Origin: Microbacterium sp. 1.5R
Lineage (GTDB): Bacteria; Actinomycetota; Actinomycetes; Actinomycetales; Microbacteriaceae
DNA length: 64,000 bases
Direction of reading: 5' to 3'
Assembly: GCF_001889265.1 (NCBI RefSeq)
Contig: NZ_CP018151.1
Location: 2,728,001-2,792,000, forward strand
Part shown: piece after piece, positions 7,506 to 24,543 of the stretch
How the letters are laid out: the number at the start of each line of letters is the position of its first letter
Position numbering within the stretch: the first letter of the stretch is position 1
Notes under the pieces: model-generated
The model's database searches: none
Told to the model about the DNA's origin: nothing
Seen by the model: only the letters and a program-made list of their open reading frames with translations
Program-made: the position numbers and the translations under genes

Positions 7506-9173
7506 TCAGGGGGTGGTCGTTCCGGTGCCTGGGTCGAAGACGGGAGGCTCGGTGACCGGCGGCAGTGACGGCTCGGGCGTCGGCTCGACCGGCGGAGTGG
7601 TCGGCTGCGGCTCCACCGGCGGCGCGGGTTCGCTCGGAGGAACCGGCTCGGGCTCGATCGGCTGCGACGGCTCCTGGTCGGGCCGGGAGTCCCGGTTGTC
7701 GGGCTCTTCGGTCTCCACAGGCAGTGCGCGCGTCACGGTGACGGGAGCGCTGACCCTCACACCGTCGCCGTTCTCCGCAGTGACGGTGTACACGGTGGCC
7801 TCGGAGCCGCACGCGAAGGGAACCGCTCGATCGGTGAGGTTGGCCGGCAGCGCCGCTGCGATCGGGAACTCGAGCGCATCGACCTGAGCGTCGCCTGCCG
7901 CGATCGCGACGCTCTCGGCATCGTCGATCTGCCAGCTCAGCAGCACCTGTGCTTCCGCTTCCTCTGAGGCGCATTCGACCGTCGCCGTGTTGGCGGTGAA
8001 GCTCTTGATCACGGGGTCCGCGGCGGGGGCCGGGGCCGAGGGGGTCGGACGCACCGAGGGCTCGGGGTCAGCGGGCGCCGCGACGCTGCTGAGGGTGCCG
8101 ATGATCGCTCCGGCTGCGACCGCGAGCAGCAGCGCGACTCCGGAGAGGACCATCAGCAGCACGCTGCGCTTTCGCGTACGCTTCTCGGCGCGACGATGGC
8201 GCTCACGACGGGCGAGAGCGCGCGGCTCCTCAGCTCCGGACGAGAGTGCGGATGCGGCATGCGTTCCGCCTCCGGACCGACCGCTCTGCAGATGCTCGCC
8301 TGCGTCGAACCCGACGGCGACCGGCGCGTTCTTCGTCGCCGGCTTCGCGGCGGAGGCGGCTCCGACAGCACTCGACCCGGGGTTCTTGGTCCAGGCGACA
8401 TACTCGGCGATGACATCGTCGGTGGGTCCGTCGGCGATGAGCTCGCCCTTGTGCACCCAGAGCACTCTCTCGCAGGTCTGCTTGAGCGAACCGGTCGAGT
8501 GGCTGACGATCATCACGAGGCCGGCGCTGTCACGCAGTTCGTTGATGCGCTTCTCGCTCTTCGCGCGGAATCGCCTGTCCCCCACGGCCAGTGCCTCATC
8601 GATGAGGAGGATCGAATGCGCCTTCGCCGATGCGATCGCGAACTTGAGTCGCGCCCCCATGCCTGACGAGTACGTGCGCATCGGGTGGTAGATGAAGTCG
8701 TTGAGCTCCGCGAAGTCGGCGATCTCGTCGACGCGCGCAGCCGCTTCCTCGGGGCTGAATCCCATCGCCAGCAGTCCGAGCCTGATGTTGTTCTCGCCCG
8801 AGAGCTCCGGGACGAGCGCAGCGTTCACACCGAGGAGCACGGGGCGGTCACGAGCGTAGATCGCGCCCTCGGAAGGCGGGATGAGTCCGGTCATCGCCCG
8901 GAACAGCGTGGACTTCCCCGAGCCGTTGTGGCCGACGACGCCGATCGACTCGCCCTCCGTCGCCGTGAAGCTCACTCCTCGCAGCGCCGGGACCGTGTGG
9001 AGGTCTCGACCGCCTCGGAAGGAGCGCAGACTCGTCAGCGATTCGCGCGTCGTCATCCGCTTGCCGGATGCGTACACGCGATAGTTGACGTGCACGTTGT
9101 CGGCCACGATCATCGGCCGTGGCGAGGTGTCGAGCGAGTTCGCTCGCGTGTCCGGGAGCAGAAGATCAGTCAC
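7506..9173 (-). CDS. Polysaccharide ABC exporter ATPase (Wzt/TagH-like) with transmembrane extracytoplasmic C-terminal extension
   Basis: The protein has 555 residues from the chosen GTG at 9173. The ATPase domain has Walker A GHNGSGKS (81-88), signature YSSGM (168-172), Walker B ILLIDE (188-193) and switch His225. After a linker there is a basic stretch and one transmembrane segment (about 337-361), then a beta-rich region (about 388-480) resembling an Ig-like fold with two cysteines, then a tail of about 60 residues rich in Pro and Glu. TagH-type ATPases also carry extracytoplasmic tails, so topology is plausible: nucleotide-binding domain inside, Ig-like domain outside. The GTG overlaps the permease gene by eight bases and has GAGG ten bases upstream; an ATG at 9182 lies too close to that motif. 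Confidence 0.86.
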   Translation of the reverse strand: MTDLLLPDTRANSLDTSPRPMIVADNVHVNYRVYASGKRMTTRESLTSLRSFRGGRDLHTVPALRGVSFTATEGESIGVVGHNGSGKSTLFRAMTGLIPPSEGAIYARDRPVLLGVNAALVPELSGENNIRLGLLAMGFSPEEAAARVDEIADFAELNDFIYHPMRTYSSGMGARLKFAIASAKAHSILLIDEALAVGDRRFRAKSEKRINELRDSAGLVMIVSHSTGSLKQTCERVLWVHKGELIADGPTDDVIAEYVAWTKNPGSSAVGAASAAKPATKNAPVAVGFDAGEHLQSGRSGGGTHAASALSSGAEEPRALARRERHRRAEKRTRKRSVLLMVLSGVALLLAVAAGAIIGTLSSVAAPADPEPSVRPTPSAPAPAADPVIKSFTANTATVECASEEAEAQVLLSWQIDDAESVAIAAGDAQVDALEFPIAAALPANLTDRAVPFACGSEATVYTVTAENGDGVRVSAPVTVTRALPVETEEPDNRDSRPDQEPSQPIEPEPVPPSEPAPPVEPQPTTPPVEPTPEPSLPPVTEPPVFDPGTGTTTP

Positions 9174-10017
9174 TGAGGCCATACCTCGGCTCGCCCTGCC
9201 AGAAGAAGATCGTCCCCCCGACGATCGCCACCAGTGCCCAGATCGGCGCAGCGATCCATGCGAGGAGCGGCGCGGCATAGCCGTCCAGCATCACGTCGCG
9301 GGCCAGGGCGATGAATTCATACGTCGGCAGGAGGTGCGCGATCGTGAGCAGCACCGGGTACCCCCCGAGCGCGCCGTCGATGTTGAAGAAGATGCCGCTG
9401 GCGTAGAAGAGCACGCGGTTGATGATCGGGACGAGCTGCTGGATGTCACGCGTGCGCACCGAGATCCGCGCGACGATGAGAGCGATGCCCAGATTGAACA
9501 CGCCCATGACCGCGAGGATCGGGATGATCAGGAGCCACGACCACGCCACCGGCTCGCCCAGGATGAGCAGCAGGATGCCGAGCAGCAGCACGACGGGCAC
9601 CATTCGCATCGCCTGCTCCGCGATCACCGAGATCGGCAGGAGGATGCGCGGGAATCCGAAGCTCTGGACGAGCTTGGAGTTGCTCGTGATCGCCTTGGAT
9701 CCGCTGCCGAAGCAGCCGGTGAAGAACTCGAAGACGAACACGCCGACGATGAGGTACGGCACGAAGTTCGCCGGCCGCGCGGCGCCGGCGAGGATGAAGT
9801 TGAAGATCGTGCCGTAGACGATCGCGAGGGAGAGCGGTTTGAGGACCACCCACAGCACACCGAGACGGTTCGGCAGCAGTCCCGCGATCAGACGGCTGCC
9901 AGCCAGCCGCAGGGCGAAGGTGCGAAGCTGCCAGGTGTCGGCGAGGTAGTCGCCGAAGCGAGGACGCGTCCCGACTTCGCTCAGACCGGAGGTCGCGGGC
10001 ACAGCAGTCGCTCCCAT
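9166..10017 (-). CDS. Polysaccharide ABC exporter permease (ABC-2 type, Wzm/TagG-like)
   Basis: This 283-residue integral membrane protein has about six hydrophobic segments and the overall layout of ABC-2 permeases of the TagG/RfbA group (LRLAGSRLIAGLLPNRLGVL before the first segment). With the ATPase encoded immediately downstream (8-nt overlap) it would form the transporter that moves a lipid-linked glycan across the plasma membrane. AGAGGATTCGGT precedes the ATG. The UDP-glucose dehydrogenase gene lies about 100 nt upstream on the same strand. Confidence 0.88.
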   Translation of the reverse strand: MGATAVPATSGLSEVGTRPRFGDYLADTWQLRTFALRLAGSRLIAGLLPNRLGVLWVVLKPLSLAIVYGTIFNFILAGAARPANFVPYLIVGVFVFEFFTGCFGSGSKAITSNSKLVQSFGFPRILLPISVIAEQAMRMVPVVLLLGILLLILGEPVAWSWLLIIPILAVMGVFNLGIALIVARISVRTRDIQQLVPIINRVLFYASGIFFNIDGALGGYPVLLTIAHLLPTYEFIALARDVMLDGYAAPLLAWIAAPIWALVAIVGGTIFFWQGEPRYGLSD

Positions 10018-10121: not shown

Positions 10122-11288
10122 TCAGTCGCGACCGTAGATGTCGCGGGTGTAGATCTTATGGACGACGTCGTCGAGCGCATCCGTCGAGCGGTTGGCGATG
10201 ATGACATCGGCCCTGGACTTGAACTCGTCGAGATCGCGAACGACCTCGGAGTGGAAGAACTCGTCCTCCTCGAGCGAGGGCTCGTACACGACGACTTCGA
10301 CGCCCTTCGCCTTGATGCGCTTCATGATGCCCTGGATCGACGACGCGCGGAAGTTGTCCGACCCGGACTTCATGACGAGGCGATAGACGCCCACGGTCCG
10401 GGGCTCTCGGGCGAGGATGTCGGAGGCGACGAAGTCCTTGCGGGTGCTGTTGGCATCGACGATCGCCGCGATGAGGTTCTGCGGCACCTTCGAGTAGTTC
10501 GCCAGCAGCTGCTTGGTGTCCTTCGGCAGGCAGTATCCGCCGTAGCCGAAGGAGGGGTTGTTGTAGTGCGACCCGATGCGCGGGTCGAGTCCCACTCCCT
10601 CGATGATCTGCTTCGTGTCCAGCCCGTGCACCACTGCGTAGGTGTCGAGCTCGTTGAAGTACGCCACGCGCAATGCCAGGTAGGTGTTGGCGAAGAGCTT
10701 GATCGCCTCGGCCTCGGTCGACTCGGTGAGCAGCACGGGCACGTCGGTGGCGATCGCCCCTTCGAGCAGAAGAGCGGCGAAGGCCTCGCCGACGGGGCCG
10801 CGATCGCCGACGACGATGCGCGACGGATAGAGGTTGTCGTGCAGCGCGCGCCCCTCTCGCAGGAACTCCGGAGAGAAGACGATCGTCGCCTGTCCATGCT
10901 CCGCGTTCATGCGCGCGGTGAATCCCACCGGCACCGTCGACTTGATCACGATCGCGGCGTCCGGGTTCACGGCGAGCACGGTGTCGATGACGTTCTCGAC
11001 CGACGAGGTGTCGAAGTAGTTGGTCACCTCGTCGTAGTTCGTCGGCGTGGCCACGACGACGAAGTCGGCGTCCCGGTAGGCCTCCTCGGCGTCGACGGTC
11101 GCCGTGAGATCGAGCTCGTGCGTGGCGAGATAGTCCTCGAGCTCGACGTCGGCGATGGGCGAGACGCGGCGACTGAGCAGCTCGACCTTCGCAGGGTCGA
11201 TGTCGACGGCGAACACCTCGTGGTTCTGGGCGAGGATGACGGCGTTGGACAGGCCGACGTATCCGGTCCCGGCGATGGCGATCTTCAT
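10122..11288 (-). CDS. ugd: UDP-glucose 6-dehydrogenase
   Basis: This 388-residue enzyme oxidises UDP-glucose to UDP-glucuronate with two NAD+. The Rossmann motif GTGYVG is at 7-12, the conserved Lys in IKSTVPVG at 116, and the catalytic Cys253 is in [11 protein letters not shown]. Length matches the short bacterial class. It sits upstream of the ABC exporter genes on the same strand and would provide glucuronate for the surface polymer. TAGCCT at 11295-11300 followed by six bases and the ATG indicates a leaderless transcript. Enzymes of this family sometimes use UDP-ManNAc or UDP-GlcNAc, but the short length and CLPKD context favour UDP-glucose. Confidence 0.9.
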
Positions 11289-11328: not shown

Positions 11329-13662
11329 ATGACACCGCGCCCTCTGCTCTCCATCGTCATACCGGTCTCGGGTGACGACGCGACTGTCGCGACGGCTCTC
11401 GAGAGCGCCATCGCGCAGAGCCTCGTCGACATCGAGATCATCTGCGTCGATGACGCCTCGACCGACGGCACTGCCGGCGTGCTCGAGCGATTCCGGCTAC
11501 GGGACCCGCGAGTGCGCGTCGTGCGCCACGAACGCAACCTGTCGGCCTTCCAGGCTCGCCGCACGGGGATCCTCGCGGCGAGCGCCGATCGCGTGATGTT
11601 CCTCGACGGCGACGACGAGCTGACCCCGGATGCCGCCGCGGTCGCGGTCGCGAAGGCCGAGGAGACGGACGTGGACATCGTCGGGTTCGGTGTCACGGTG
11701 ATCGAGCGCGACGGCCGCACCGGCAGCCCGTACGAGGTGCGCCTGCAGCCGCCGCAGCATCCGCACGCCGGCGATGACGTGCTGCGCGCCCTCTTCCCGG
11801 TGGGGAAGCCTGCTCAGGGTCAGCTCTGGCGATTCCTCTTCCGCACGAGCGTGCTGCGCGAGGCGTACTCCCTCGTCCCCGACGACCTCGTGCTCCCGCG
11901 CATCAACGACCTGCCGCTTCTCTTCCTCGTGGCCATACTCGCCGAGAGCTACGCGGCGGTCCCCGACAAGCTGTACCGCTATCACTTCGGTCGCGGTGGC
12001 AGCGGGCACCGGGTCGACACCCTCGAACGGGCGCGGTTCTACACAGGGGCGATCCGCTCGGTCGACGCGATCGGATCGGCTGTCGAGGCACTCGCAACCG
12101 CACATGCCGATCCGAGCCTCGTCCGCGACACCTACGCGTCGGTGCGCTTCTCGATCATCGGATACGTGTGCTTCCAGCTGGTCGAGCACAGCGACGAGGG
12201 CATGCTCGACGGCGCTCTCGCACATCTGCACACGGTCGTCAGCGGCCCGGACATCATCCATGCCGCTGCGCGGTTCTATCCGGCGACTCTCAAGGCTCTC
12301 AGGTTCCACACGACGTGGCAGGGGCTGCCTGACCGGCCCGCACGCAGCATCCTGCTCGTCACGTCGACCCTCCGTACCGGCGGCGTGTCGGCCGTGCTCA
12401 CCTCGCAGGCGCGCTATCTGCATGAGGCGGGCTACCGGGTGACCGTCGTCGCCCGCAACGGCGGCAGCGACGCGACCGTTCTTCCCGCCGGCATCCCGTT
12501 CGTCGAGCTGACCTCACGTCGACTGCCCGCCCAGCTCACGCAGTGGGCCGAGATCTGTCGCGCCCACGAGGTCGACGTGGTCATCGACCACCAACTGCTC
12601 TACACCGACACCTGGCCCGAGTTCGCGCTCGTGGCACGAGCCGAGGGCGCGGCGACGATCGGCTGGCTGCACAACTTCGTCGCTCGACCGGTCTACGACG
12701 GCAACGATCGGCTCACCCTGATCGAGCGCTGCAGTCCGACGCTCGCTCAGCTCATCACGCTGTCACCGCTCGACGTCGCCTACTTCCGCCTGCGCGGCAT
12801 CGAGAACGTGGCGTACCTGCCGAACCCGCCCTCGCCGTTGATGCTCGAGTCGGCGGCTCGGACAGGTGCGAAGACGCCGCCGTCCGACCGTCTCGAGCTG
12901 GTGTGGTGGGGGCGACTCGAGCAGCGGACCAAGCAGGTGCGGGAGCTCGTCGAGGTCGGAGTGCAGCTGCGCGCCCTCGGCGTGCCTTTCACACTGCGGA
13001 TCGTCGGCCCGGACTGGGATGACGTCACCGCGAAGAGGCTCAACGCCCTCGCGCGTCGTCGCGGCGTCGGAGATGCCGTCGTCGCCGTCGGGCCTCTGCG
13101 AGGGGCTGCGCTGGTCTCGGCCATCGACTCCGCGGATGCCTTCGTCTCGACCAGCATCATCGAGGGGTATCAGCTCACGATCGCCGAAGCACAGGCCCGG
13201 GGGCTCCCGGTCTTCATGTACGAGCTCCCCTGGCTCACGCTCGTGCAGGACAACCAGGGTGTCGTCGCCGTGCCCCAGGGGGACGCCCGGGGGCTCGCCG
13301 CCCGGCTCGCCGAGACGCTCGCTGATCCGGAGGGCTATCGTCAGCTGTCTCTGGCGTCGGTGGATGCCGCGAGACGGGCGCGCGACCAGGACTTCGCGCA
13401 GCTGTATCGCGAAGTGGTCACCGGCGAGCTGTCGCCGATGTACTCGCCCGAGCCGACGCTCGACGATGCCGGTCGCCTGCTCGGTCTGCTGGTGTTCTTC
13501 GCCCAGCGCGCGGACGGCCGCTCCGTCTCGTCCGCCGATTCGTCGACCTGGGGCCAGCGCGCCTGGCAGTCCGCGGCGCCACTCGGCCGCGCGACCCTGC
13601 GGCGGATCCCGGGACTCCAGCCGCTCGCGCACCGCGCGAAAGGCTGGCTCGGCGCGCGCTGA
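11329..13662 (+). CDS. Fused glycosyltransferase: GT2 N-terminal domain plus GT4 C-terminal domain (paralogue 1)
   Basis: The protein has 777 residues. The GT2 (GT-A fold) domain carries CVDDASTDGT with Asp41-Asp42 and the DxD-like FLDGDDE at 92-97, both needed for nucleotide-sugar and metal binding. A helical middle region (about 200-335) contains YRYHFGRGGSG. A GT-B/GT4 domain starts near 340 (ILLVTSTLRTGGVSAVLTSQ) and has the E-x7-E motif in EGYQLTIAE near 612. A C-terminal basic tail follows. Two active domains would let one chain add two successive sugars. Related copies lie at 15805 and 18171. The start is the ATG at 11329 just after the TAGACT box; the open frame extends further 5' but through ugd. 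Confidence 0.87.
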   Translation: MTPRPLLSIVIPVSGDDATVATALESAIAQSLVDIEIICVDDASTDGTAGVLERFRLRDPRVRVVRHERNLSAFQARRTGILAASADRVMFLDGDDELTPDAAAVAVAKAEETDVDIVGFGVTVIERDGRTGSPYEVRLQPPQHPHAGDDVLRALFPVGKPAQGQLWRFLFRTSVLREAYSLVPDDLVLPRINDLPLLFLVAILAESYAAVPDKLYRYHFGRGGSGHRVDTLERARFYTGAIRSVDAIGSAVEALATAHADPSLVRDTYASVRFSIIGYVCFQLVEHSDEGMLDGALAHLHTVVSGPDIIHAAARFYPATLKALRFHTTWQGLPDRPARSILLVTSTLRTGGVSAVLTSQARYLHEAGYRVTVVARNGGSDATVLPAGIPFVELTSRRLPAQLTQWAEICRAHEVDVVIDHQLLYTDTWPEFALVARAEGAATIGWLHNFVARPVYDGNDRLTLIERCSPTLAQLITLSPLDVAYFRLRGIENVAYLPNPPSPLMLESAARTGAKTPPSDRLELVWWGRLEQRTKQVRELVEVGVQLRALGVPFTLRIVGPDWDDVTAKRLNALARRRGVGDAVVAVGPLRGAALVSAIDSADAFVSTSIIEGYQLTIAEAQARGLPVFMYELPWLTLVQDNQGVVAVPQGDARGLAARLAETLADPEGYRQLSLASVDAARRARDQDFAQLYREVVTGELSPMYSPEPTLDDAGRLLGLLVFFAQRADGRSVSSADSSTWGQRAWQSAAPLGRATLRRIPGLQPLAHRAKGWLGAR

Positions 13663-13677
13663 GTCTCGAAGTCGGCG

Positions 13678-14727
13678 TTACGCCACGGCATCCATCGCCG
13701 CGTGGATGCGCGCGGTCAGGCGGACGATGTCTTCACGGGCCGAGTGGACCGCCGGCGCGAGCGACGGCAGGTGCGACTCGAACTGCTCGGCGAACTCGCC
13801 GAGCTGTTCGTATCGACCGACGAGGTCACCGAGTCCGACGGCTGTCAGAAGGCGTGAGATCTTGTGCGGGTCGCTGCCCGAACCTATCGGGTATGCCCCC
13901 TCGGTCGCACCGATGATGAGGCCGTGCGCCCGGTCGCTGATGACGGCGAGCGACTGCCGGTACACCGCGCGCACGTAGTCGTCGAGCACGTCGTGCCGCA
14001 TGCTCGAGGGCATCACGTACTCACCGCCGAGAGCCTCTGCGAGCCGAACCGCTCGAGGCGCGTCGCGCGCCACCTGGGCGACGGTGACGATCCGGGTCTG
14101 AGTCGAAGCCGCGAACGCACGGACGTCCGAGAGCCACTGCTCACCCGGCCATGCCCGGTCGAAGCGCATGGTCACCGCGATGAGCGGTCGATCGCCGGCA
14201 GCAGCCCACTCGTCGACCGCTCGCCCCTCCGAGTAGGCCCAGTCCGGCGCGAAATCGCCGAATCCCGCACCGTCACGAGAACCTCGATCGCGCCACGACA
14301 TCACCGAGGCGTCGCGCATGACCGGGTCGAACACCACGCCATGCAGCGTGTCGACGTTCTTGATGCCGATGCCGGCGAAGATCAGCGCCCCGCCCGCGTC
14401 GAGCACCCGTGCGCATTCGGCCGCACGGCGTGGCACCGGGAAGTGCCCCGTACGCGGATTGATCTCCCCGGCGTTGAACGCGTGCACGGGACGAGCGGCC
14501 GCGGCCTCGGCCTGGGCCCACTCCCCTCTCGCGTCATAGAACGTGAGGTCTGACGCCGGTGTGAACCCGGCCGTGAAATCACTCGTCGCCTCACCGAGAT
14601 AGACGTGCACGTGCCGCCCCGCACCTCTCAAGGCTTCGAGATAGGCGAGTCGCAGTGCGGAGTCGCCGAGGTTGTCGTCCTGCCCGCTGAGATGGGCGAA
14701 CACATGCTGAGTCGGTTTCACAATCAC
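13678..14727 (-). CDS. Polysaccharide pyruvyltransferase family protein
   Basis: This 349-residue protein belongs to the PS_pyruv_trans family. HLSGQDDNLGDSALRLAYLE near the N-terminus is the family's N-x-GD block, and VISDRAHGLIIGATEGAYPI in the C-terminal half is the SDRxH block. It would add a pyruvyl ketal to a glycan residue using phosphoenolpyruvate. It lies between GT2-GT4 fusion genes on the opposite strand. The start is GTG at 14727, eight bases after TATAGT (leaderless), with an alternative in-frame GTG at 14721 that has GGGGTG about eight bases upstream. Confidence 0.82.
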   Translation of the reverse strand: MIVKPTQHVFAHLSGQDDNLGDSALRLAYLEALRGAGRHVHVYLGEATSDFTAGFTPASDLTFYDARGEWAQAEAAAARPVHAFNAGEINPRTGHFPVPRRAAECARVLDAGGALIFAGIGIKNVDTLHGVVFDPVMRDASVMSWRDRGSRDGAGFGDFAPDWAYSEGRAVDEWAAAGDRPLIAVTMRFDRAWPGEQWLSDVRAFAASTQTRIVTVAQVARDAPRAVRLAEALGGEYVMPSSMRHDVLDDYVRAVYRQSLAVISDRAHGLIIGATEGAYPIGSGSDPHKISRLLTAVGLGDLVGRYEQLGEFAEQFESHLPSLAPAVHSAREDIVRLTARIHAAMDAVA

Positions 14728-14735
14728 TTCACCCC

Positions 14736-14745
14736 ACTATATGGT
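14736..14745. promoter_or_regulatory. Overlapping divergent -10 boxes in a 24-bp intergenic gap
   Basis: TATAGT (minus, 14736-14741) and TATGGT (plus, 14740-14745) share two base pairs. They lie eight and six bases from the GTG starts at 14727 and 14752. The whole intergenic gap is 24 bp, so any -35 elements would lie inside the opposing genes. Confidence 0.5.
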
Positions 14746-14751
14746 GGCTCT

Positions 14752-15798
14752 GTGTTCTCCGTGCCCCTCCCCAGGACCGGAGCAGCGACTGAACCGGGCG
14801 CGACCGAGGCTTCCGTTCCGACGGTGCTCGTCACCTCGCGCCCGCCGCGGCATCGCGTCGACTACGTCGATGAACTCGTCGGCGACGACTCGGAGGGTCG
14901 TGCTCCGACCGGCGCCGTGCTGGAGTTCCGCACCGACCCGTTTCGGGCGCACGGCGTGGATGTGATCCACCTGACCGACATCGCGACGGTCATCGGCGGC
15001 CCCCGCACTCGCGACCGAGAGCGCACACGGCGGGCGAAGCGCTTCACGAAGATGCTCCGACGCCGAGGCATCGCCCTCGTGCGCACCGTGCGCGAGACGG
15101 AGGCGGATCGGTCGCGGTCCCGAGCGGAGGCGATCGTCGATGCGGCAGCGACGACCGTGACATCGCTCGATGCCGTGACGGCGGCGGACGGCAGAGCGAC
15201 GGTCGTCATCGGCCACAGCCACCTTCGCAACCGGTTCCTCGGCTTCCCTCGGGAAGAGGCCGTCGCGGGCCGCGTGCTGATCACGGCGGTCAACACCCTG
15301 CATCCGTCGTCCCGACCGGCCGTGAGCGTCTTCGGAGTCGCTGACCTGCCCGGCTGGACGCTGCGCCTCGCAGGCAAGGTGCCGATCGACCTCGAGGACT
15401 CCTACGCGCGAACGCTTGCCGACCTCACCGACACGGTGTCGCTGCGCGACGAGCTCCTCTCCGATGCAGAATGCGTCTCGGAGATCAGCCAGGCGGAGAT
15501 CGTGCTCATCACAGCGCCGACGAACCACAGGTCCCAGAGCGTCCTCATGCTCGCTCTGTCGCTGGATCGGCCCGTGCTCGTCGAGGACAGCCCGCAGACG
15601 CGGGCGCTCGCTGACGAGGTCGGCCCTTCATGGGTGCGGCGCCATGCCGGTCCGCTGACCGCCCAGACACTCGAGAACGAGCTCGCCGCATTGCGAGCAG
15701 ATCCGCCCACCGGTCGCCCCCGCCTCGATGCGCGCGACCCCAACCTGATCAGCGAGCAGTACTTCGCGGTGTATCGCGCCGCCGCGGCCGCGCGCTGA
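14752..15798 (+). CDS. Probable GT-B fold glycosyltransferase (divergent)
   Basis: This is a 348-residue soluble protein. Segments such as HGVDVIHLTDIATVIGGPRT and RRRGIALVRTVRETEADRSR resemble the acceptor lobe of GumK-like/GT4 enzymes, where an H-x-H-W and a T-V-H-N block occupy these places. The C-terminal lobe has SVLMLALSLDRPVLVEDSPQ, at the position of the donor-binding loop, but no E-x7-E. Assignment rests on this layout and on position among glycosyltransferase genes; it could be catalytically atypical. GTG at 14752 follows TATGGT by six bases; the open frame extends upstream but through the divergent gene. The next gene starts six bases after its stop. Confidence 0.55.
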   Translation: MFSVPLPRTGAATEPGATEASVPTVLVTSRPPRHRVDYVDELVGDDSEGRAPTGAVLEFRTDPFRAHGVDVIHLTDIATVIGGPRTRDRERTRRAKRFTKMLRRRGIALVRTVRETEADRSRSRAEAIVDAAATTVTSLDAVTAADGRATVVIGHSHLRNRFLGFPREEAVAGRVLITAVNTLHPSSRPAVSVFGVADLPGWTLRLAGKVPIDLEDSYARTLADLTDTVSLRDELLSDAECVSEISQAEIVLITAPTNHRSQSVLMLALSLDRPVLVEDSPQTRALADEVGPSWVRRHAGPLTAQTLENELAALRADPPTGRPRLDARDPNLISEQYFAVYRAAAAAR

Positions 15799-15804
15799 CG
15801 CCGG

Positions 15805-18159
15805 ATGACTCTCATGCCGACGCCTTCGACTCCTCTCGTCTCCTTCATCGTCCCCGCCGACGCAGAAGCAGACTCCGTCGCGCGCAGCCTTCGATCGTGT
15901 CTCACCCAGTCACTCGCCCAGATCGAGATCGTCTGCGTGCTCCCCGACGGAACCGGACTCGCCTCCGCAGAGGCGACCTCGGATCCGCGTGTCGTCACCA
16001 TCACCCGACCTTCCGATTCCGCCCGCTCGCAGCTCCGGCGGGCGGGGGTCGAAGCCGCGACGGCGCCGTACGTGCTGCTGCTCGAGCCGGGAGACACCGT
16101 GGCTCGCGGCGCCGCGATGCGGCTTCACCGCTGCGCCGTGGAATCGCAGGCGCAGCTCGTCGGATTCGCCGTCCAGACGTCGCCCGATGACCGCAAGGGC
16201 GAGACGCACCCGGCTGAGGCGGGGCCTCTCCACGGACCCGACATCCTCCGCGCCCTCCTCCCCCGGGACACCGTCGCAGAGCTCGTGCCCTCGCGACACC
16301 TGTTCCAGACCGACCTGCTGCGACGGGCGTATGCGACGTCCGCAACCGACTCCGGCCCGCTCATGGACGACCGGGGCGCCGTGCTGCTGGCCTACGCATC
16401 CGCGGAGTCGTATGGAGCGGTCAGCACGGTCGAGTACCTGCGCCGATCGCAGCAGCGCGACATCGCCGCTGACCCGGTGCGCCTCGAACAAGCGATGCAC
16501 CACGTCAGGTCGTTGCAAGCCGTCGAGCCGGCCGTCCGGGAGAAGGCCCGACACAGCGCAGACCCCGAGCCACTGCTCGACGGGTACACCACGGGCTATC
16601 TCACCGCGATCGGGGAAGCACTCGACGCCTTCGCCGCGCTGCCGCCGGAGGCGCGGGCCCACGCGCACGAGACGCTGCGATCCTGCGTCGGTGACCTCGA
16701 CCTGATCGCGGCGGCCGTGACCTTCGCGCCCGACGCGATCCCCGCGCTCGTCGCGCACGGGGAACGTCTCGAACTCGGCCGCGCGCCGGTGCGGAGCGTG
16801 CTGCTGACGACCAATGTGCTGACCACCGGCGGGGTCTCGGGTGTGCTGCTCACGCAGGCGCGGTTCCTTCTCAGAGCCGGATACCGGGTGACGATCGTCA
16901 CGCATCGCCCCGGGAGCGCCGAATCGCTCGTTCCCGAAGGCGCCACGCTCGTTCAACTGACCGGCACGAGCCGACGTCAGCGCGTGACGCAGTGGGCGCA
17001 GTTCTGCCGACGCTTCGCCGTAGATGTGGTCATCGACCACCGCATCCTGTATTCGCGCGACTGGCCTTCGTTCGCGATCGCGGCCCGCTCGGCAGGGTCG
17101 GCGACCATCGGCTGGATACACAACTTCGCAGGCCGCCCCACGTACAACGGGAACGACCTCCAGACGCTGCTCCAGACCCATCTGAGCGCGCTCGCGCACC
17201 TGGTGGTGCTCTCTCCGCTCGATGTGGCGTTCTGGAAGCTCCGGGGCATCCGTCACGTGAGCTACCTCCCGAACCCGCCGTCGCCGTTCCTCCTCGCCGT
17301 CGGCGAACCGCGCAGCGCGAAGCCGGCGCCGGCGGGTCGCCGGCTGGAGCTCGTCTGGTGGGGGCGGTTGGAAGAGCACACCAAGAAGGTCACGCAGCTG
17401 GTGGAGGTGGCCGCGGCGCTCCAGCGGCTCGGAATCGACTTCCGGCTGCGGATCGTCGGTCCGGACTGGGCCGACATGAGCGCGGATCGGCTGCGGGATC
17501 TGGCCGCGACCCGAGGCGTGGCCGACCGCGTCGAGCCCACCGGTCCTCGGCATGGATCGGATCTCCTCGAGGTGATCGATTCGTCGGACATCTTCGTCAA
17601 CACGAGCATCATCGAGGGGTACCCTCTCACCCTCCCCGAGGCACAGTCGCGCGGTCTTCCGATCGCGATGTACGACCTGCCGTGGCTGTCGCTCATCCAG
17701 CACAACGCCGGCGTCGTCACCACGGCGCAGCAGGATCCGGAGTCGCTCGCCCAGGCGATCGCGGATGTCGCCGCGGATCCGGCCCGGTATGAAGCGATGT
17801 CGAGAGCCTCCGTCCTGGCCGCGACTGACGCCACCTCGTTCGACTTCGCCCAGCTCTACGAGCAGCTGCTGCATGGTGGCCTTCCAGCGGAGCTCTCTCC
17901 CGAGCCCACGCTCGACGACGGACGCAAGGTGCTCGAACTGCTCGTCTTCTTCGCCGAGCGGAGCACCCCGCCGCCACGGGCGGCGCCCTCTCGGTCGACG
18001 GCGCTCGCGCCCGCAGCACTCCGCCCTCGGTCGCAGCCGCGTACGTTCGGGGAGCGTCTCGAGCGGAAGCTGACCCCCATCGGCCACCGCGTCATCGATG
18101 CTGCTCCGTGGCTTCGACCGGCGGCGAACAAAGTCAAGCGCGTATTGCTGCGCCGATAG
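15805..18159 (+). CDS. GT2-GT4 fusion paralogue 2, with degenerate GT2 domain
   Basis: The protein has 784 residues and the same architecture as the copies at 11329 and 18171. The N-terminal GT2-like domain has lost the key acidic residues: the DDAST block is replaced by CVLPDGTG (Leu46-Pro47 in place of Asp-Asp) and the DGDD block by LLEPGDT (94-97). The C-terminal GT4 domain is intact: SVLLTTNVLTTGGVSGVLLT near 335, RLELVWWGRLEEHTKKV, and the E-x7-E motif in EGYPLTLPE. It therefore probably works as a GT4 enzyme with a non-catalytic or scaffold N-terminal domain. It follows the 14752 gene by six bases and precedes the third copy by 11 bases. Confidence 0.83.
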   Translation: MTLMPTPSTPLVSFIVPADAEADSVARSLRSCLTQSLAQIEIVCVLPDGTGLASAEATSDPRVVTITRPSDSARSQLRRAGVEAATAPYVLLLEPGDTVARGAAMRLHRCAVESQAQLVGFAVQTSPDDRKGETHPAEAGPLHGPDILRALLPRDTVAELVPSRHLFQTDLLRRAYATSATDSGPLMDDRGAVLLAYASAESYGAVSTVEYLRRSQQRDIAADPVRLEQAMHHVRSLQAVEPAVREKARHSADPEPLLDGYTTGYLTAIGEALDAFAALPPEARAHAHETLRSCVGDLDLIAAAVTFAPDAIPALVAHGERLELGRAPVRSVLLTTNVLTTGGVSGVLLTQARFLLRAGYRVTIVTHRPGSAESLVPEGATLVQLTGTSRRQRVTQWAQFCRRFAVDVVIDHRILYSRDWPSFAIAARSAGSATIGWIHNFAGRPTYNGNDLQTLLQTHLSALAHLVVLSPLDVAFWKLRGIRHVSYLPNPPSPFLLAVGEPRSAKPAPAGRRLELVWWGRLEEHTKKVTQLVEVAAALQRLGIDFRLRIVGPDWADMSADRLRDLAATRGVADRVEPTGPRHGSDLLEVIDSSDIFVNTSIIEGYPLTLPEAQSRGLPIAMYDLPWLSLIQHNAGVVTTAQQDPESLAQAIADVAADPARYEAMSRASVLAATDATSFDFAQLYEQLLHGGLPAELSPEPTLDDGRKVLELLVFFAERSTPPPRAAPSRSTALAPAALRPRSQPRTFGERLERKLTPIGHRVIDAAPWLRPAANKVKRVLLRR

Positions 18160-18170
18160 CGAGAGACCAC

Positions 18171-20546
18171 ATGCAAGCGACTCCCCTCGTCTCGATCGTC
18201 GTCCCCGTCTTCAACGATGCCGACGTGATCGCCACCGCTCTCGACAGCTGTCTTCGGCAGACGCTGGCAGCGATCGAGGTCATCGTGGTCGACGACGCGT
18301 CGACCGACGACACCGCCGCGATCGTCGAACGCTACAGCGCTCGGGACTCGCGCGTGCGACTCATCCGCCAGCAGCAGAACGCGTCGGCGTACCAGGCTCG
18401 TCGCGTCGGGATCCTCGCGGCGAAGGCCGATCATCTGCTGTTCCTCGACGGTGACGATGAACTCGCGGAGACGGCTGCCCGGGCAGCTCTCGAGAAGGCG
18501 ACGGAGACCGGCGCTGATCTCGTGCAGTTCGGAGTCGAGGTCGTGCGTCTCGATGGGCGCACCGGGGGGCCGTTCGAGTCACGCCTGCAGCCGAAGCACC
18601 CCACTCTCACAGGCAGCGATGTCCTGCGCGGCCTCTTCCCGCTGGATCGCCCTGCCCAAGGGCAGTTGTGGCGCTACCTGTTCCGTACCCGCCTCCTCGC
18701 CGATGCCTATGCGCTCATGCCCGCAGACCTGGTGCTGCCGAGGGTCAACGACCTGCCGATCTCCTTCCTCGCTGCGGCGCTGGCCGCTCGCTTCGAATCG
18801 ATCCCGGACCGCCTGTACCGTTATCACTTCGGGCGAGGCGGAAGCGGCCAGAAGGTGCGTGACCTCAGCACCGCATCGTTCTACGCAGGAGCCATCCGAT
18901 CCATCGATTCGATCGAGCCGGCCGTCCTGCGGGTCGCCGGCACGAGCATCGACCCTGACCTCGTGCTCTCGACCTACGCATCCGTACGACGCGCCATCAT
19001 CGGATACACCACCCACTACCTGGCAGAGCACACCCGTGCGGATCTGCGCGACGCGATGTTCGCCGACCTGTACACCCGGGCGTCCGCCCACGACATCGTG
19101 CAGTCGACCGCCCTGCACTGGCCGAAGGCGATGGACACGCTCGCCGCCCACGGCGACGCGATCGAGCTCGTCGCTCGACCGGTGCACAGCATCATCCTCG
19201 CAACGAACCATCTGCGCACCGGTGGAATCTCCGGCGTCGTGATCTCTCAGGCTCGGGTGCTGCACGACTCCGGCTTCCGCGTGACGGTCGTGGCCCGCGA
19301 GCCGGGCAGTGATCTCTCGAACCTTCCGGCCGGCGTCGGCTTCGCCGAGGTGTCGGCGGACACCCTGGGCGGCTCGCTCGCCCAGTGGGCCGAGATCTGC
19401 ACGCAGCACGAGGTGGATCTCGTGATCGACCACCAGTGGCAGTACTCACCGTCGTGGCAGGCCTTCGCGCTCGCGGCACGCGCTGAGGGTGTCGCCACGA
19501 TCGGGTGGTCGCACAACTTCGCCGGTCGATCGCTGCTGCTCGGTCTCGATCGCCTCGAATCCGCGCCGCGATACTTCGCGCTGCTCTCGCATCTCGTCGT
19601 TCTCTCGCCACTCGACGTCGCGTTCTGGAAGCTGCGAGGGATGCCGCGTGTGTCCTACCTTCCCAATCCGCCGTCGTCTAACCTGCTCTCTGCCGGAATC
19701 GCGACCGCGCCGCGGCGCCCACCTGCGGGGCGGCGCGTCGAGCTGGTCTGGTGGGGCCGCCTGCAGCAACGCACCAAGAGGGTCAGCGAGCTGATCGACG
19801 TCGCCGAGCACCTCGAGCGGATGGGCGTCGATTTCCGGCTCCGGATCATCGGCCCCGACTGGCGCGACATGACGGCGTCACGGCTGAACGGGATGGCGAA
19901 GGCGCGACGCTTCGCGCACCGCGTCGAAGCGGTGGGACCGCTTCATGGTGCCGCCCTCAGTGCCGCCATCGACTCGTCCGATCTGTTCGTGAACACCAGC
20001 ATCATCGAGGGCTACCCCCTCACGATCCCGGAGGCACAGGCGCGGGGTCTCCCGGTCGCGATGTACGACCTGCCGTGGTTGGCCGTGACCGATGGAAACG
20101 GGGGCGTCGCGAAGACGGGCTGGGGGGATGCCGAGGCTCTCGCCCGACAGATCGCCGAGGTCGTCGCCGACGCCGACGTCTACACCCGCATGTCGGCGGC
20201 GTCGCTGGCCGCAGCCGAGCGAGAGCTCTCACACGATTTCGCGGTGCTGTATCGCCGGCTGGTCGAGGGCGCGCTTCCGTCCGAGCTGTCACCCGTACCG
20301 ACAGTCGACGACGTCCGGCAGCTCATCGACCTCTCCATCACCTTCGCCGAGGAGCACGCGGCGACGCGCTCGGGGCCTCAGCGCTCTCGCGGTGCGGCCG
20401 GAAGCACGCCCGGGACGCCGGCGAGGGTCGCGACGACGTGGCGGGCGCGCGCCAAACAGCGTGCCGCTCCGGCAGCGAGAAGACTCATCGAGGTCGCTCC
20501 CTGGATGGGTCCGATCGCTCGAAGGATCAAGCGCACGCTCACGTGA
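18171..20546 (+). CDS. Fused glycosyltransferase GT2 plus GT4 (paralogue 3)
   Basis: The protein has 791 residues from ATG 18171, preceded by GAGAG; the frame is open further upstream but overlaps the previous gene. The GT2 domain is intact, with VVDDASTDDT (Asp41-Asp42) and FLDGDDE (91-97), and the middle region again has YRYHFGRGGSG. The GT4 domain has SIILATNHLRTGGISGVVIS and E-x7-E in EGYPLTIPE. Sequence blocks such as VELVWWGRLQQRTKRV and the start of the GT4 domain are nearly the same in all three copies, so they arose by duplication within the locus. It is the last gene of the plus-strand unit that begins at 14752. Confidence 0.87.
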   Translation: MQATPLVSIVVPVFNDADVIATALDSCLRQTLAAIEVIVVDDASTDDTAAIVERYSARDSRVRLIRQQQNASAYQARRVGILAAKADHLLFLDGDDELAETAARAALEKATETGADLVQFGVEVVRLDGRTGGPFESRLQPKHPTLTGSDVLRGLFPLDRPAQGQLWRYLFRTRLLADAYALMPADLVLPRVNDLPISFLAAALAARFESIPDRLYRYHFGRGGSGQKVRDLSTASFYAGAIRSIDSIEPAVLRVAGTSIDPDLVLSTYASVRRAIIGYTTHYLAEHTRADLRDAMFADLYTRASAHDIVQSTALHWPKAMDTLAAHGDAIELVARPVHSIILATNHLRTGGISGVVISQARVLHDSGFRVTVVAREPGSDLSNLPAGVGFAEVSADTLGGSLAQWAEICTQHEVDLVIDHQWQYSPSWQAFALAARAEGVATIGWSHNFAGRSLLLGLDRLESAPRYFALLSHLVVLSPLDVAFWKLRGMPRVSYLPNPPSSNLLSAGIATAPRRPPAGRRVELVWWGRLQQRTKRVSELIDVAEHLERMGVDFRLRIIGPDWRDMTASRLNGMAKARRFAHRVEAVGPLHGAALSAAIDSSDLFVNTSIIEGYPLTIPEAQARGLPVAMYDLPWLAVTDGNGGVAKTGWGDAEALARQIAEVVADADVYTRMSAASLAAAERELSHDFAVLYRRLVEGALPSELSPVPTVDDVRQLIDLSITFAEEHAATRSGPQRSRGAAGSTPGTPARVATTWRARAKQRAAPAARRLIEVAPWMGPIARRIKRTLT

Positions 20547-20580: not shown

Positions 20581-20676
20581 AGCGGGTCGGTGACGGCCAT
20601 CGCGCCGGGTCGGTGACGGCGGTTGCCGATCAGCCGCGCTTGCCCGTGATGCGCGACGCTCGGTGACCGACCCGCT
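20581..20676. repeat. Short direct and inverted repeats between convergent genes
   Basis: CGGGTCGGTGACGGC occurs at 20583-20597 and again at 20606-20620, a 15-bp direct repeat with 23-bp period. AGCGGGTCGGT (20581-20591) is also matched by ACCGACCCGCT (20666-20676) in inverted orientation, partly inside the 3' end of the minus-strand gene. It may act as a weak two-way terminator for the convergent genes; there is no T-run. Confidence 0.4.
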
Positions 20677-23455
20677 CGACGATCGAGTCCCTCACACGGA
20701 TCATGGAGCGGTTCTTGCCCGCGCTGGCCGCCGTCAGGCGCTGGAACCGACCGGGGAAGAACCGGTTGGCCGCCTCTTCGATCTTCAGGGGCGACCGGCG
20801 CATCCCGAGTGAGTCCTCATACTCGAGCTCGATCACCCACACCCCTGCCCGAGGGAAGAGCTCGGGGGAGATCTCTGCCGACCAGGTGCGATCGTCGAAG
20901 TCGAAGTGGCGGATCGGGAACCGGACTCGATCCCGGTCTCGGTACTGTCGAGCGACGAGACGCGTGACTCCCCCGGGTCGCAGTCCCGTCATCGCGCCTG
21001 ACAGCGTGGTCCGCGCCCCGCTTCTCAGCGTGGCGGCGATGCCGGCGGACGGAGGACTGATCGACTGCCGGGCGAGGTCGACGTCATCTGACTCGACGAT
21101 GGCACCCGCGAGCCGTTCTTCCAGACTGTGGGGAACGACAGCAAGGGGGACGTTCGGATCCAGAAGACGTCTCCGCAGCACCGGCAGGGCCGGCGAGAAG
21201 GCATCGGTCCGCCATGACGGATCACTGATGAACCGGCGCATCAGGTATTTCAGTGAGAGGCTGTCGATCGTGGCCCGAGGGATCGTCGGCAGCGCCTCGG
21301 CAGCCGACAGCGCACGGATGAGCTGGTCGGCGTTCAGCGTGGATGCCGACTTCTCGGCGCGCAGCATGATCCGCGCCTCGTTGAATCGACCGTCCGCGGC
21401 GAGCGCCCAGACGACCTGGTTCTCTGCTTTCAGTCTGCGGAGCTCGTTGCGGGGCGCACGCGAGAGCAGCTTCGCGATCTGTTCCGCGACCCGACGGTCC
21501 TCGGCGCGGTCGCCGGAGCGACGCTCGAGGAACTTGCCGATGTTCTGCCAGGCGTCGGCGTTGAGCACCATCGCCCAGTACTCGCGGGTCACCGGCGCCG
21601 ACTCGCGTTGCTGGACCAGCGCGGCGCACGTCGCCTCTTCGCTGAAGTAGCTCACCGTGTAATCCGTCGAGCCCGCGCGCGAGGTCATGGAGCCCCCGCC
21701 CGGACGGTCTCTGTAGACGTACGCCGGCAGCGGGGACACCGCGATCGATCGCGCGCTCAAGAGGACGCTCGTCATCGCGACGATGTCGTTCGATCGCGGA
21801 ACCCCGGGAAAGGGGAATGCGGTCTGCTGCCAGTGCTCGCGCCGGATGAGACGGTTCCACACCGCCCGGTGCCTGACCAGCTGGGGGTGGGTCTCGATCG
21901 TGACGTTCTCGAGAGGGAGCGCATAGGCCTGATTGAAGCCGGTGCCCGCGTCCCACGTCGAGGTCGTGAAGAACTTCAGATAGCTGCCGTTGATGACATC
22001 CGGATCCGACCTGCGCGCGAGCGACAGCAGGTGCGCGTACGCGCGTGGCGGGACGACGTCATCACCGTCGGCGAACGCGAGATACTTTCCGCGGGCGAGC
22101 TCGATCCCGGCGTCGCGCGCCTGGCCGCCGCCCGCCCCGGGAGACCTCACCAGACGCACCCGGGGGTCCGCGCGCTGATGCGCGAGGACTCTGTCCTGAG
22201 TCCCGTCCGTCGACCCGTCGTCGACGACGATGATCTCGATCCTGACGCCCACGGAGGCTCGGATGCTCTCGAGGAGCTCGTCCACGTAGTGGACCACGTT
22301 GTAGGTGGGGATGATGACGGAGATGTCGATGGCATCGGAGTCGGTGTCGGGTTCCCCCGATGTCGCCCCGGGTCGCGACACGAATCGCTCGATGAACGCG
22401 TCCCGGAGGTCCTCCTCCCCGCGCAGCCCGAGCGGGGCCCAGGCGTCGACGAGCAGGGGGGTCGAATCGAAGCTCGGCACGTCGTCGACCCCGATGGGGC
22501 GGCCATCGGGCCGTGCGACGTCCACCAGGGCAGCATGGCCCATCGCGATCAGCGCGAGCTGCCAGCGCTTCCAGATCGTCAGATTCGACAACGAGGTCGT
22601 CGAGAGGTCTCGCGCGAGATCGTAGACGAGAGCCTTCGCATCGGGTCGTTCCTGACCGGCGGCGAGGAGATCGAGCGCCTTCGGGTTCAGCACGTCACGG
22701 GAGATCACCTCGCGGGCATACGACTGGCGCACTGCCAGCGGAGCAGCGGCGAGCGCAGCCCAGATGCGAGATTCGTCCGTGACCCAGCGCGAGGACATCG
22801 GTGCAGCCGGGCTCTTGCTCGGACGTTCCCGGCAGAAGACGACGGAACGCGAGACGATATCGACGCGGCCCGCAGCCAGATACAGCCGGGCTACGAGAAG
22901 CTCCTCGAGCCACGGATCCTCCGCGTGCACGAGCGAACGGATCAGATCGCGCCGCATCACCTTGCCGCACAGGATGTCATCCGAGACCAGGCCGGGCCGG
23001 TCCTCCAGCAGGATGCTCGTCGCGTCCGTGTCGAGCGCGCCGTCGACTGCACGACCGATCCGGTAGCGGTGCTTGGCGATCGACTCCGCGGTTCCGACAG
23101 CCATGTCCGATCCGGACGCCTGCAGGCTGGCGACCAAGGCTCGGTAGCCGCCCCGGATCGAGAGCCCGTCGGCATCCGCGACCGTCACCCAGGAGGCTGA
23201 GCAGCGCTCGAGAGCAGCGGCGAGCGCTGCGCTTCGCCCCCGTGCGCTGTCCGCGTCGATCACGTGAACACGCGCATCAGAGCGCGCCGCCGTGCGCACG
23301 ACCGACGCGACGTCCGGGCTGCTGCGCCCGTCGACGACGACGACGACGTCCAGGGTCGGGGAATCCTCTCGCAGGGTCGACCACAGGAGGTCGCTCACAT
23401 GCATGGGCGATTCGGGGAAGATGACGACCACGCTCAGATCAGCGACCTCGTTCAT
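20630..23455 (-). CDS. Large glycosyltransferase with two GT2 domains
   Basis: The protein has 941 residues. The first GT2 domain covers about 7-220 (VVVVDGRSS, then TVADADGLS with a DxD at 93-95). The second begins near 375 with ISVIIPTYNVVHYVDELLES, VDDGSTDGT and FADGDDVVPP. The C-terminal 330 residues are helical followed by a beta-rich end without a recognised family. Two GT-A domains in one chain could make a two-sugar repeat. The ATG overlaps the stop of the upstream gene (ATGA at 23452-23455). This is the last gene of a minus-strand operon; longer in-frame sequence upstream of the ATG is not protein-like. Confidence 0.83.
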   Translation of the reverse strand: MNEVADLSVVVIFPESPMHVSDLLWSTLREDSPTLDVVVVVDGRSSPDVASVVRTAARSDARVHVIDADSARGRSAALAAALERCSASWVTVADADGLSIRGGYRALVASLQASGSDMAVGTAESIAKHRYRIGRAVDGALDTDATSILLEDRPGLVSDDILCGKVMRRDLIRSLVHAEDPWLEELLVARLYLAAGRVDIVSRSVVFCRERPSKSPAAPMSSRWVTDESRIWAALAAAPLAVRQSYAREVISRDVLNPKALDLLAAGQERPDAKALVYDLARDLSTTSLSNLTIWKRWQLALIAMGHAALVDVARPDGRPIGVDDVPSFDSTPLLVDAWAPLGLRGEEDLRDAFIERFVSRPGATSGEPDTDSDAIDISVIIPTYNVVHYVDELLESIRASVGVRIEIIVVDDGSTDGTQDRVLAHQRADPRVRLVRSPGAGGGQARDAGIELARGKYLAFADGDDVVPPRAYAHLLSLARRSDPDVINGSYLKFFTTSTWDAGTGFNQAYALPLENVTIETHPQLVRHRAVWNRLIRREHWQQTAFPFPGVPRSNDIVAMTSVLLSARSIAVSPLPAYVYRDRPGGGSMTSRAGSTDYTVSYFSEEATCAALVQQRESAPVTREYWAMVLNADAWQNIGKFLERRSGDRAEDRRVAEQIAKLLSRAPRNELRRLKAENQVVWALAADGRFNEARIMLRAEKSASTLNADQLIRALSAAEALPTIPRATIDSLSLKYLMRRFISDPSWRTDAFSPALPVLRRRLLDPNVPLAVVPHSLEERLAGAIVESDDVDLARQSISPPSAGIAATLRSGARTTLSGAMTGLRPGGVTRLVARQYRDRDRVRFPIRHFDFDDRTWSAEISPELFPRAGVWVIELEYEDSLGMRRSPLKIEEAANRFFPGRFQRLTAASAGKNRSMIRVRDSIVERVGHRASRITGKRG

Positions 23456-24543
23456 GGCACCTCCGTGGTCTGCGTGGAAGAGTCGGTCAGGTCCTCGATG
23501 ATCGACACATAGTCCCAGGCCATGTGCAGCGTCGAGTATTCGGATGCGAATCGCGTCGCCGCAGCTCGCACGTCCTCCCTCACGGGGAAGGCAGCCGCGA
23601 TCGTGTCCGCCAGGGCAGACACGGGATCGCGCCGGGTGTCGTAGAAGGTCACCCACGGCTGCGCGCCGTACTCCGCGATGAGATGAGGCTCGGCGGGCAG
23701 GATGCACGGTCGCGCGAACGTCGCCGAGAGCAGGACGCTGCCGGAGTTGAGCACGCGCTCATAGGGGAAGACCAGCACGTCGCACGCCGCGAACCACGCC
23801 GAGATGTTCGCGTCGCTGATGAACGAGTGCCGTCGCACGGTCGGCACGCCCGTCGGCAGCTCCCGTTCGATCAGAGCGATCTCCTCGGGTGCCGTCTTTC
23901 CGGCGAGCACCAGAACGAGATCGTCGACGTGGGATGACGCCTTCCCCACCGCGCGCAGCAGGGTCGGGATGCCCTTGTATCCGCGGATCTGCCCGACGAA
24001 TCCGACCACCGATGCGGACGACGGTATCCCGAGAAGCTCACGGGCCTGGTCCTGGGAGGGCGGGTCGGAGTAGATACCCGCATAGCTGGCGTGCCTCAGG
24101 GTGACGATCTTCTCGGGTGGGAGATCGTAGAACTCCGAGACGGCCTCGCTGGTGCTGGCGTTCAGCTGGATGATCCGATCGGCGCGCTCCGCGAGGAGGC
24201 GCGCCAGCTTGACCTCCAGGTCCGGATACGGGGTGTTGTGAGCCAGCGTGTTGTGGACGGTCCAGATGATCCGCACGCCCGCCTTGCGCAGCCTCAGGAG
24301 GATCCCCGCGAAGCGCTTGAGGGAGCGCTCTGCGATGTCACGAGTGCCGTCCGAGTTCACGATGGGACTCGTCCAGTGGATGTGGAAGATGTCGCCGTCC
24401 GTCAGGCCGGGCAGAGCGTCGACCAGCGTCTCGATGGTCTTGGACCCCTCGACGCGCCATCCTTCCGAGCGTGCCCCGACATAGAGCATGTTCAGATACG
24501 GATTCTGCGCCCAGGCGGGGAAGACGTGGATTTTTCCGCTCAC
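23452..24543 (-). CDS. Glycosyltransferase family 4 (GumK-like layout)
   Basis: This 363-residue GT-B protein has an acceptor lobe with GDIFHIHWTSPI and VRIIWTVHNTLAHNTPYPD, blocks typical of this subgroup. The donor lobe has GFVGQIRGYKGIPTLLRAVG and VFPYERVLNSGSVLLSATFA, where LNSGS takes the place of the usual E-x7-E. The start is GTG at 24543, overlapping the previous stop as GTGA; upstream in-frame codons belong to the antisense of that gene's frame and look unlike protein. It is fifth in the six-gene minus-strand operon and is translationally coupled at both ends. Confidence 0.83.
   Translation of the reverse strand: MSGKIHVFPAWAQNPYLNMLYVGARSEGWRVEGSKTIETLVDALPGLTDGDIFHIHWTSPIVNSDGTRDIAERSLKRFAGILLRLRKAGVRIIWTVHNTLAHNTPYPDLEVKLARLLAERADRIIQLNASTSEAVSEFYDLPPEKIVTLRHASYAGIYSDPPSQDQARELLGIPSSASVVGFVGQIRGYKGIPTLLRAVGKASSHVDDLVLVLAGKTAPEEIALIERELPTGVPTVRRHSFISDANISAWFAACDVLVFPYERVLNSGSVLLSATFARPCILPAEPHLIAEYGAQPWVTFYDTRRDPVSALADTIAAAFPVREDVRAAATRFASEYSTLHMAWDYVSIIEDLTDSSTQTTEVP

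Follow-up and report, generated by a model that had tools for sequence, protein, structure and literature searches.

A GT2-GT4 fusion glycosyltransferase of Microbacterium with an apparently lost GT2 active site beside an intact sister copy

What becomes of a two-domain glycosyltransferase when, after gene duplication, one of its two active sites decays? The question is raised by a stretch of 64,000 nucleotides from Microbacterium sp. 1.5R (contig NZ_CP018151.1, positions 2,728,001 to 2,792,000; hereafter the window), for which a preliminary description had claimed three fusions of a GT2 and a GT4 domain, at 11329, 15805 and 18171, the middle one with a dead GT2 domain. The three fusions are confirmed, and their starts fit homologues. 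We call them c1 (11329..13662), c2 (15805..18159) and c3 (18171..20546); all lie on the plus strand, with 11 bases between c2 and c3, and Pfam places GT2 before GT4 in each. Mechanical open reading frames open further upstream for c1 (11155, an ATG) and c3 (18108, a GTG), and the starts used here are in-frame internal ATGs consistent with homologues. By Pfam and alignment, both sets of active-site motifs are intact in c1 and in c3, the sister of c2; in c2 itself the GT2 active site is degenerate and the GT4 active-site residues are intact. Over the alignment c2 is 45% and c3 54% identical to c1, and a whole-genome search finds full-length fusion matches at these three loci only. The GT2 model PF00535 scores 98.7 bits on c1, 105.7 on c3 and 23.9 on c2 (cut-off 23.3), c2 being the weakest of the 22 matches to this model in its own genome (E <= 1e-5), while the best GT4 model scores are higher for c2 than for c1 or c3. 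Since PF00535 is above cut-off and homology to c1 and c3 is full-length, the N-terminal half of c2 is GT2 by descent. The genome's strongest PF00535 match is a nearby minus-strand protein (20630-23461) with two tandem GT2 domains.

With c2 as query (E <= 1e-60), a family member was found in 25 of 366 Microbacterium genomes, its own included. About 20 kb was fetched from each of the 24 other genomes; out of 72 matches we excluded 8 with a best score below 400 bits (mostly matches to the GT2 part) and kept 64 family rows above 400 bits, the window's three included, with two c1 rows clipped by locus ends replaced by whole rows. The genus, family and order searches scored the two or three top candidates of each genome, and further copies may lie beyond the fetched stretches of about 20 kb. 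On this footing c2 is found in 9 of the 366 genomes, the window's and eight others, one per species; the nine genomes with c2 are also those with a c3 orthologue (above 900 bits), which adjoins c2 in every one, and the c1 clade is present in 22 of the 25 sampled genomes. A family-level sample at E <= 1e-60 gave matches in 2 of 398 genomes (85 genera), both Microbacterium, and an order-level sample at E <= 1e-30 gave matches in 5 of 297, of which two lie outside the genus, each with intact GT2 motifs.

How complete is the loss in c2? The motifs DDASTD, DGDD, GQLWR and ND are retained in c1 and c3 and absent from c2. DDAST and DGDD had been reported for c1 and c3, with LP and EPGD in their place in c2, and the alignment bears this out: VDDASTDGT or VDDASTDDT has become VLPDGT, and LDGDD has become LEPGD. 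Beyond what had been described, c2 has lost GQLWR, the ND of VNDLP and YHFGRGGSG. The GT2 motifs are degenerate in all nine c2 genes (the window's and those of eight relatives) and intact in the neighbouring c1 and c3 of all nine genomes. Had a recent random mutation struck the window strain only, the orthologues might have retained the acidic motifs, an outcome that had been named in advance as a refutation; the loss is instead conserved in relatives, and since the same degeneration is seen in eight other genomes, one per species, and c2 forms a well-supported clade (100/97), we regard a recent mutation as refuted and give it next to no weight. A half-dead c2 standing beside an intact c3 in eight other species appears to reflect a change that is old and has been retained, not a recent accident.

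We scored four donor/metal aspartates in c3 numbering, at columns 41 and 42, which we take to be the uridine-side Asp pair, and at columns 93 and 95, presumably the DxD; column 194 we take to be the catalytic base, all these roles being carried over from GT2 enzymes. All nine c1 and all nine c3 retain four of the four, whereas c2 retains none in five orthologues (the window's included), one in three and two in one. This last, the c2 of G212, still has D41 and D95. The loss therefore differs between orthologues, and separate lineages may each have lost the DxD. The claim that the donor and metal ligands of c2 are gone thus stands for the four aspartates of the window's copy but not for every acidic residue: D96, the last Asp of EPGD, is retained in eight of nine c2, and column 194 is Asp in seven, Glu in one and Leu in one, although its flanking motif is altered and gapped. 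More broadly, of the 51 columns that are best conserved in the family, the c2 GT2 half retains 53%; P12, D41, D42, N70, Q75, D93, G94, D95, A162, G164, R191, N193, P196, Y218, G226 and F237 are lost in at least seven of nine c2, and P5, S26, Q30, E36, D59, R61, G80, D96, D116, F120, P157, L176, L200 and A205 are retained in at least eight. Could the domain still work through an altered or metal-independent site? The aspartates at columns 96 and 194 and the one c2 with D41 and D95 would allow it, and the excerpted text of PMC3961637 provides a precedent in a metal-independent bacterial GT6 enzyme. However, the uridine-side pair, the DxD pair, GQLWR and GRGGSG are eroded, with residues that vary from species to species and no conserved replacement, and we consider continued activity very unlikely. 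We infer that GT2 chemistry is absent from c2, and from the motif loss we take its GT2 (GT-A) domain (residues 9-245; 15829..16539, plus strand), for which a GT-A-like fold is predicted, as non-catalytic. A family member outside the c2 clade (L049:6576-9110, G027) also has partly eroded GT2 motifs, with DDASTD and a DSDD kept and GQLWR and ND replaced, possibly an independent loss.

The signature of retaining GT4 transferases is E-x7-E together with a conserved Arg/Lys pair. In the GT4 (GT-B) domain of c2 (residues 330-700; 16792..17904, plus strand) the corresponding E613, E621, R530 and K536 (c3 numbering) are retained in all nine c2 genes, in agreement with the E-x7-E reported before. The listed GT4 catalytic positions as a whole (E-x7-E, Arg, Lys, two His, glycines, Thr) are kept in nine of nine in each paralogue; S707, a position of the GT4 region, varies in c1 (7/9). 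The predicted structure gives this half of c2 the GT-B fold of GT4 enzymes, and we infer that it would be active as a sugar transferase. Among 166 invariant columns of the c2 GT4 half, 6 are c2-specific; the c3 control count is similar, with 4 of 151 c3-specific, so a re-specialised GT4 half is possible and at most weakly suggested.

The order of events can be read from a tree built from the GT4 half alone, which leaves the trait in question, GT2 loss, out of tree building. This tree supports a c2 clade (100/97), a c3 clade (100/99) and their union (100/94), and with two rows from other families added the values are 100/98, 100/100 and 99/94. Dead against live GT2 needs a single change on it, with labels assigned by hand (the nine c2 dead, the rest live, including the partly eroded L049:6576-9110). 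The intact rows nearest to c2 and c3, from L040 and L042, join them weakly (57/76). The earlier suggestion that a gene was duplicated and that one active site was then lost is therefore upheld; judging from the sequences, c1 is the older paralogue, and c2 clearly illustrates loss at the level of a single domain in a duplicated gene. The tree places this loss before the split of the nine c2 genes.

The genes around the trio suggest that its setting is the synthesis of a cell-wall or capsular glycopolymer. On the minus strand lie an ABC exporter (ATPase and ABC2 permease, 7506..10017), whose ATPase finds its best NCBIfam matches in TagH and galactan Wzt, both below their cut-offs, and a UDP-glucose/GDP-mannose dehydrogenase (10122..11288); several GT4 genes, pyruvyl-transferase-like genes and a GSCFA gene are also found. 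Between c1 and c2 stand a weak pyruvyl-transferase-like gene (13678..14727, minus strand; TIGR03609 23.4 bits and PF04230 14.3 bits, both below cut-off) and a gene with neither a Pfam nor an NCBIfam match (14719..15798, plus strand; its start is uncertain, the open reading frame opening at 14605). This pair stands upstream of c2 in all nine genomes, with the unmatched gene directly upstream on the same strand, 6 bases away in the window; a comparison of the unmatched gene with the GT4 domain by hhalign gave no homology support (probability 1.8%). Four pyruvyl-transferase-like genes lie within 24 kb of the window (6333-7436, 13678-14727, 24540-26132 and 28168-29667), two above the Pfam cut-off and two weak, which suggests a pyruvylated polymer. 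The unmatched gene accompanies the pyruvyl-like gene and fusion transferases outside the family as well: in L102, from another family, the three adjoin, in yet another orientation.

We also asked what gene order says of the ancestor. A single intact fusion in the slot of c2, in genomes without c2 and c3, was considered as a candidate and rejected on gene order. Five such genomes (L043, L044, L045, L048 and L051) carry an intact fusion beside the pyruvyl-like and unmatched gene pair, mostly on the pyruvyl side or convergent, unlike c2, which lies downstream of the unmatched gene. Since the intact fusions mostly occupy another slot or orientation, the case for a single-copy bifunctional ancestor comes from the tree and not from gene order. 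On the c1 tree, which is not the species tree and has many open forks, the presence of the c2-c3 pair needs 6 changes (5-6 in bootstrap trees), 3 of them forced by well-supported branches, and the label is no more clustered than when shuffled (121 of 500 shuffles as low). These 6 changes without clustering indicate that the pair was seemingly gained, lost or exchanged; in the sampled genomes c2 and c3 are never found apart. In L040 and L042 the combination of fusion transferase, pyruvyl-like gene and unmatched gene occurs twice, in neighbouring sets, once with c2 and c3 and once with a lone intact fusion, which gives the impression that entire modules have been exchanged.

Why, then, is the GT2 half of c2 still there? 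Mean identity over 36 genome pairs is 36% in the GT2 half and 70% in the GT4 half of c2, 74% and 66% in c3, and 73% and 75% in c1; the rates of c2 and c3 are thus reciprocal, the GT4 half being the less conserved one in c3 and the more conserved one in c2, with c1 even. In the closest usable pair the c2 GT2 half has a dN/dS of 0.18, compared with 0.06 for the GT2 halves of c1 and c3 and 0.04 for the c2 GT4 half, an omega of 1 being rejected; 6 of the 36 genome pairs were fitted, and the support comes mainly from this one close pair, since dS exceeds 2.5 for the c2 GT2 half in the other five, two of them saturated. One might take the fast drift of the GT2 half as the mark of a whole gene decaying into a pseudogene. 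We reject this reading as extremely unlikely: the c2 frame is open, with no internal stops, in all nine genomes, the GT4 half is strongly conserved, and the fitted pairs give dN/dS values under 1 for either half. Selection on the c2 GT2 half rather appears relaxed but not free, weakened yet purifying, with full length retained.

The preliminary description had proposed that the dead domain became a scaffold or partner for its paralogues, an idea that we find only partly supported. For it are the constant company and adjacency of c2 and c3 and the full-length domain; against it is the fast evolution of that domain, which has 10 invariant columns out of 239 in c2, none of them specific to c2, compared with 122 of 248 in the c3 control, 4 of them c3-specific. 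A new binding surface under conservation would not be expected to evolve so fast and to show no invariant residue of its own. The pattern speaks less for such an interface than for a fold that is retained because the protein needs it. The full c2 model has a mean pLDDT of 85 with both halves folded, although its GT2 half leans on the intact paralogues in the alignment. A model of the GT2 half from six c2 rows only reaches a mean pLDDT of 58, best in about residues 10-110, and Foldseek matches this low-confidence model to GT2 chains (3bcv, SpsA and TarP, E 4e-6 to 3e-4), with IspD-type nucleotidyltransferases also among the matches. VIA-align is uninformative on the GT2 half, all 50 matches listed for the full c2 model being GT4-half alignments.

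We therefore propose, with a probability of roughly 70%, that c2 is a GT4-only transferase that acts beside c3 on a cell-wall glycopolymer and keeps its GT2 domain as a non-catalytic fold. A bifunctional GT2-GT4 transferase would have been duplicated within a cell-wall glycopolymer cluster of the ABC-exporter type, giving rise to c2 and c3. After the duplication c2 would have lost GT2 catalysis (the donor-side and DxD aspartates, GQLWR, ND and GRGGSG) and become a GT4-only transferase, with c3 keeping the motifs of both activities. The GT2 domain of c2 would stay as a folded non-catalytic module, presumably needed by the GT4 half for folding, positioning or assembly.

This reading overlaps with, and does not exclude, that of an obligate c2-c3 complex on the model of EXT1-EXT2 or CHSY-CHPF, in which the dead GT2 domain of c2 would serve c3 for docking or regulation. 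The occurrence of c2 and c3 in the same 9 of 366 genomes, always adjacent, and a pair whose presence changes 6 times on the c1 tree yet is never split, would fit such a complex, and animal precedents are at hand in the excerpted accounts of the pseudo-GlcA-T domain of EXT2 (PMC9675754) and of the stabilising CHPF (PMC12748766). However, genes in tandem would be passed on together in any case, the c1 tree is no species tree, and the dead domain, 23-46% identical in 34 of the 36 pairs, lacks any invariant residue specific to c2; we hold an obligate complex to be a tentative possibility. The reciprocal rates of c2 and c3, together with the c3 GT4 half being furthest from the outgroup (52% identity to five outgroup rows, the lowest of the three paralogues, against 55% and 59%), give a weak hint of a division of labour, that is, of a heterodimer in which c2 would be mainly a GT4 and c3 mainly a GT2 enzyme, a convergent counterpart of EXT1-EXT2. 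The intact GT4 catalytic residues of c3 count against it, and we think it rather doubtful.

Whichever role its dead domain has, c2 is a good bacterial instance of a type of event that is already known. Bifunctional transferases that build polymers are common, but the way in which duplicates divide their tasks can seldom be traced. In this case one half-dead copy is shared by nine species, at differing stages of decay and together with an intact sister, and intact fusion relatives occur elsewhere in the genus. The series lends itself to testing whether such a domain is ballast, a requirement of the fold or a subunit.

How does c2 compare with known systems? Among the literature matches listed, as far as their excerpts go, there is no report of the Microbacterium c2-c3 pair or of a bacterial GT2-GT4 fusion with a dead GT2 domain. 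The best match of the c3 GT2 half among solved sequences is K4 chondroitin polymerase (PDB 2z86, 2z87), which like c1-c3 has two transferase domains per chain; it differs in that both are of GT2 type, with no GT4. Both domains of that polymerase are active. The GT4 enzymes MshA and BshA resemble the GT4 half of c2 by sequence (MshA) and by predicted fold, but have no GT2 half; they are stand-alone enzymes of thiol biosynthesis. EXT1-EXT2 are animal enzymes of other CAZy families, GT47/GT64. Because the families differ, we do not claim membership of c2-c3 in the EXT1-EXT2 or CHSY-CHPF systems, and a c2-c3 heterodimer is possible by analogy. In the excerpted account of the EXT1-EXT2 heparan sulfate polymerase (PMC9675754), one of two two-domain paralogues has a pseudo-transferase domain and an active one, and c2, like EXT2, has one dead and one apparently live domain; the dead domain of EXT2 is the GlcA transferase and that of c2 the GT2, and a complex is demonstrated there, whereas c2-c3 show co-occurrence and adjacency (9/9). 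The CHSY-CHPF chondroitin synthases, as excerpted from PMC12748766, are likewise two-domain paralogues in which a partner devoid of donor/metal residues is retained and pairs with an active one, CHPF being stabilising; CHPF and CHPF2 lack these residues at both sites, whereas c2 keeps its GT4 catalytic residues in all nine genomes.
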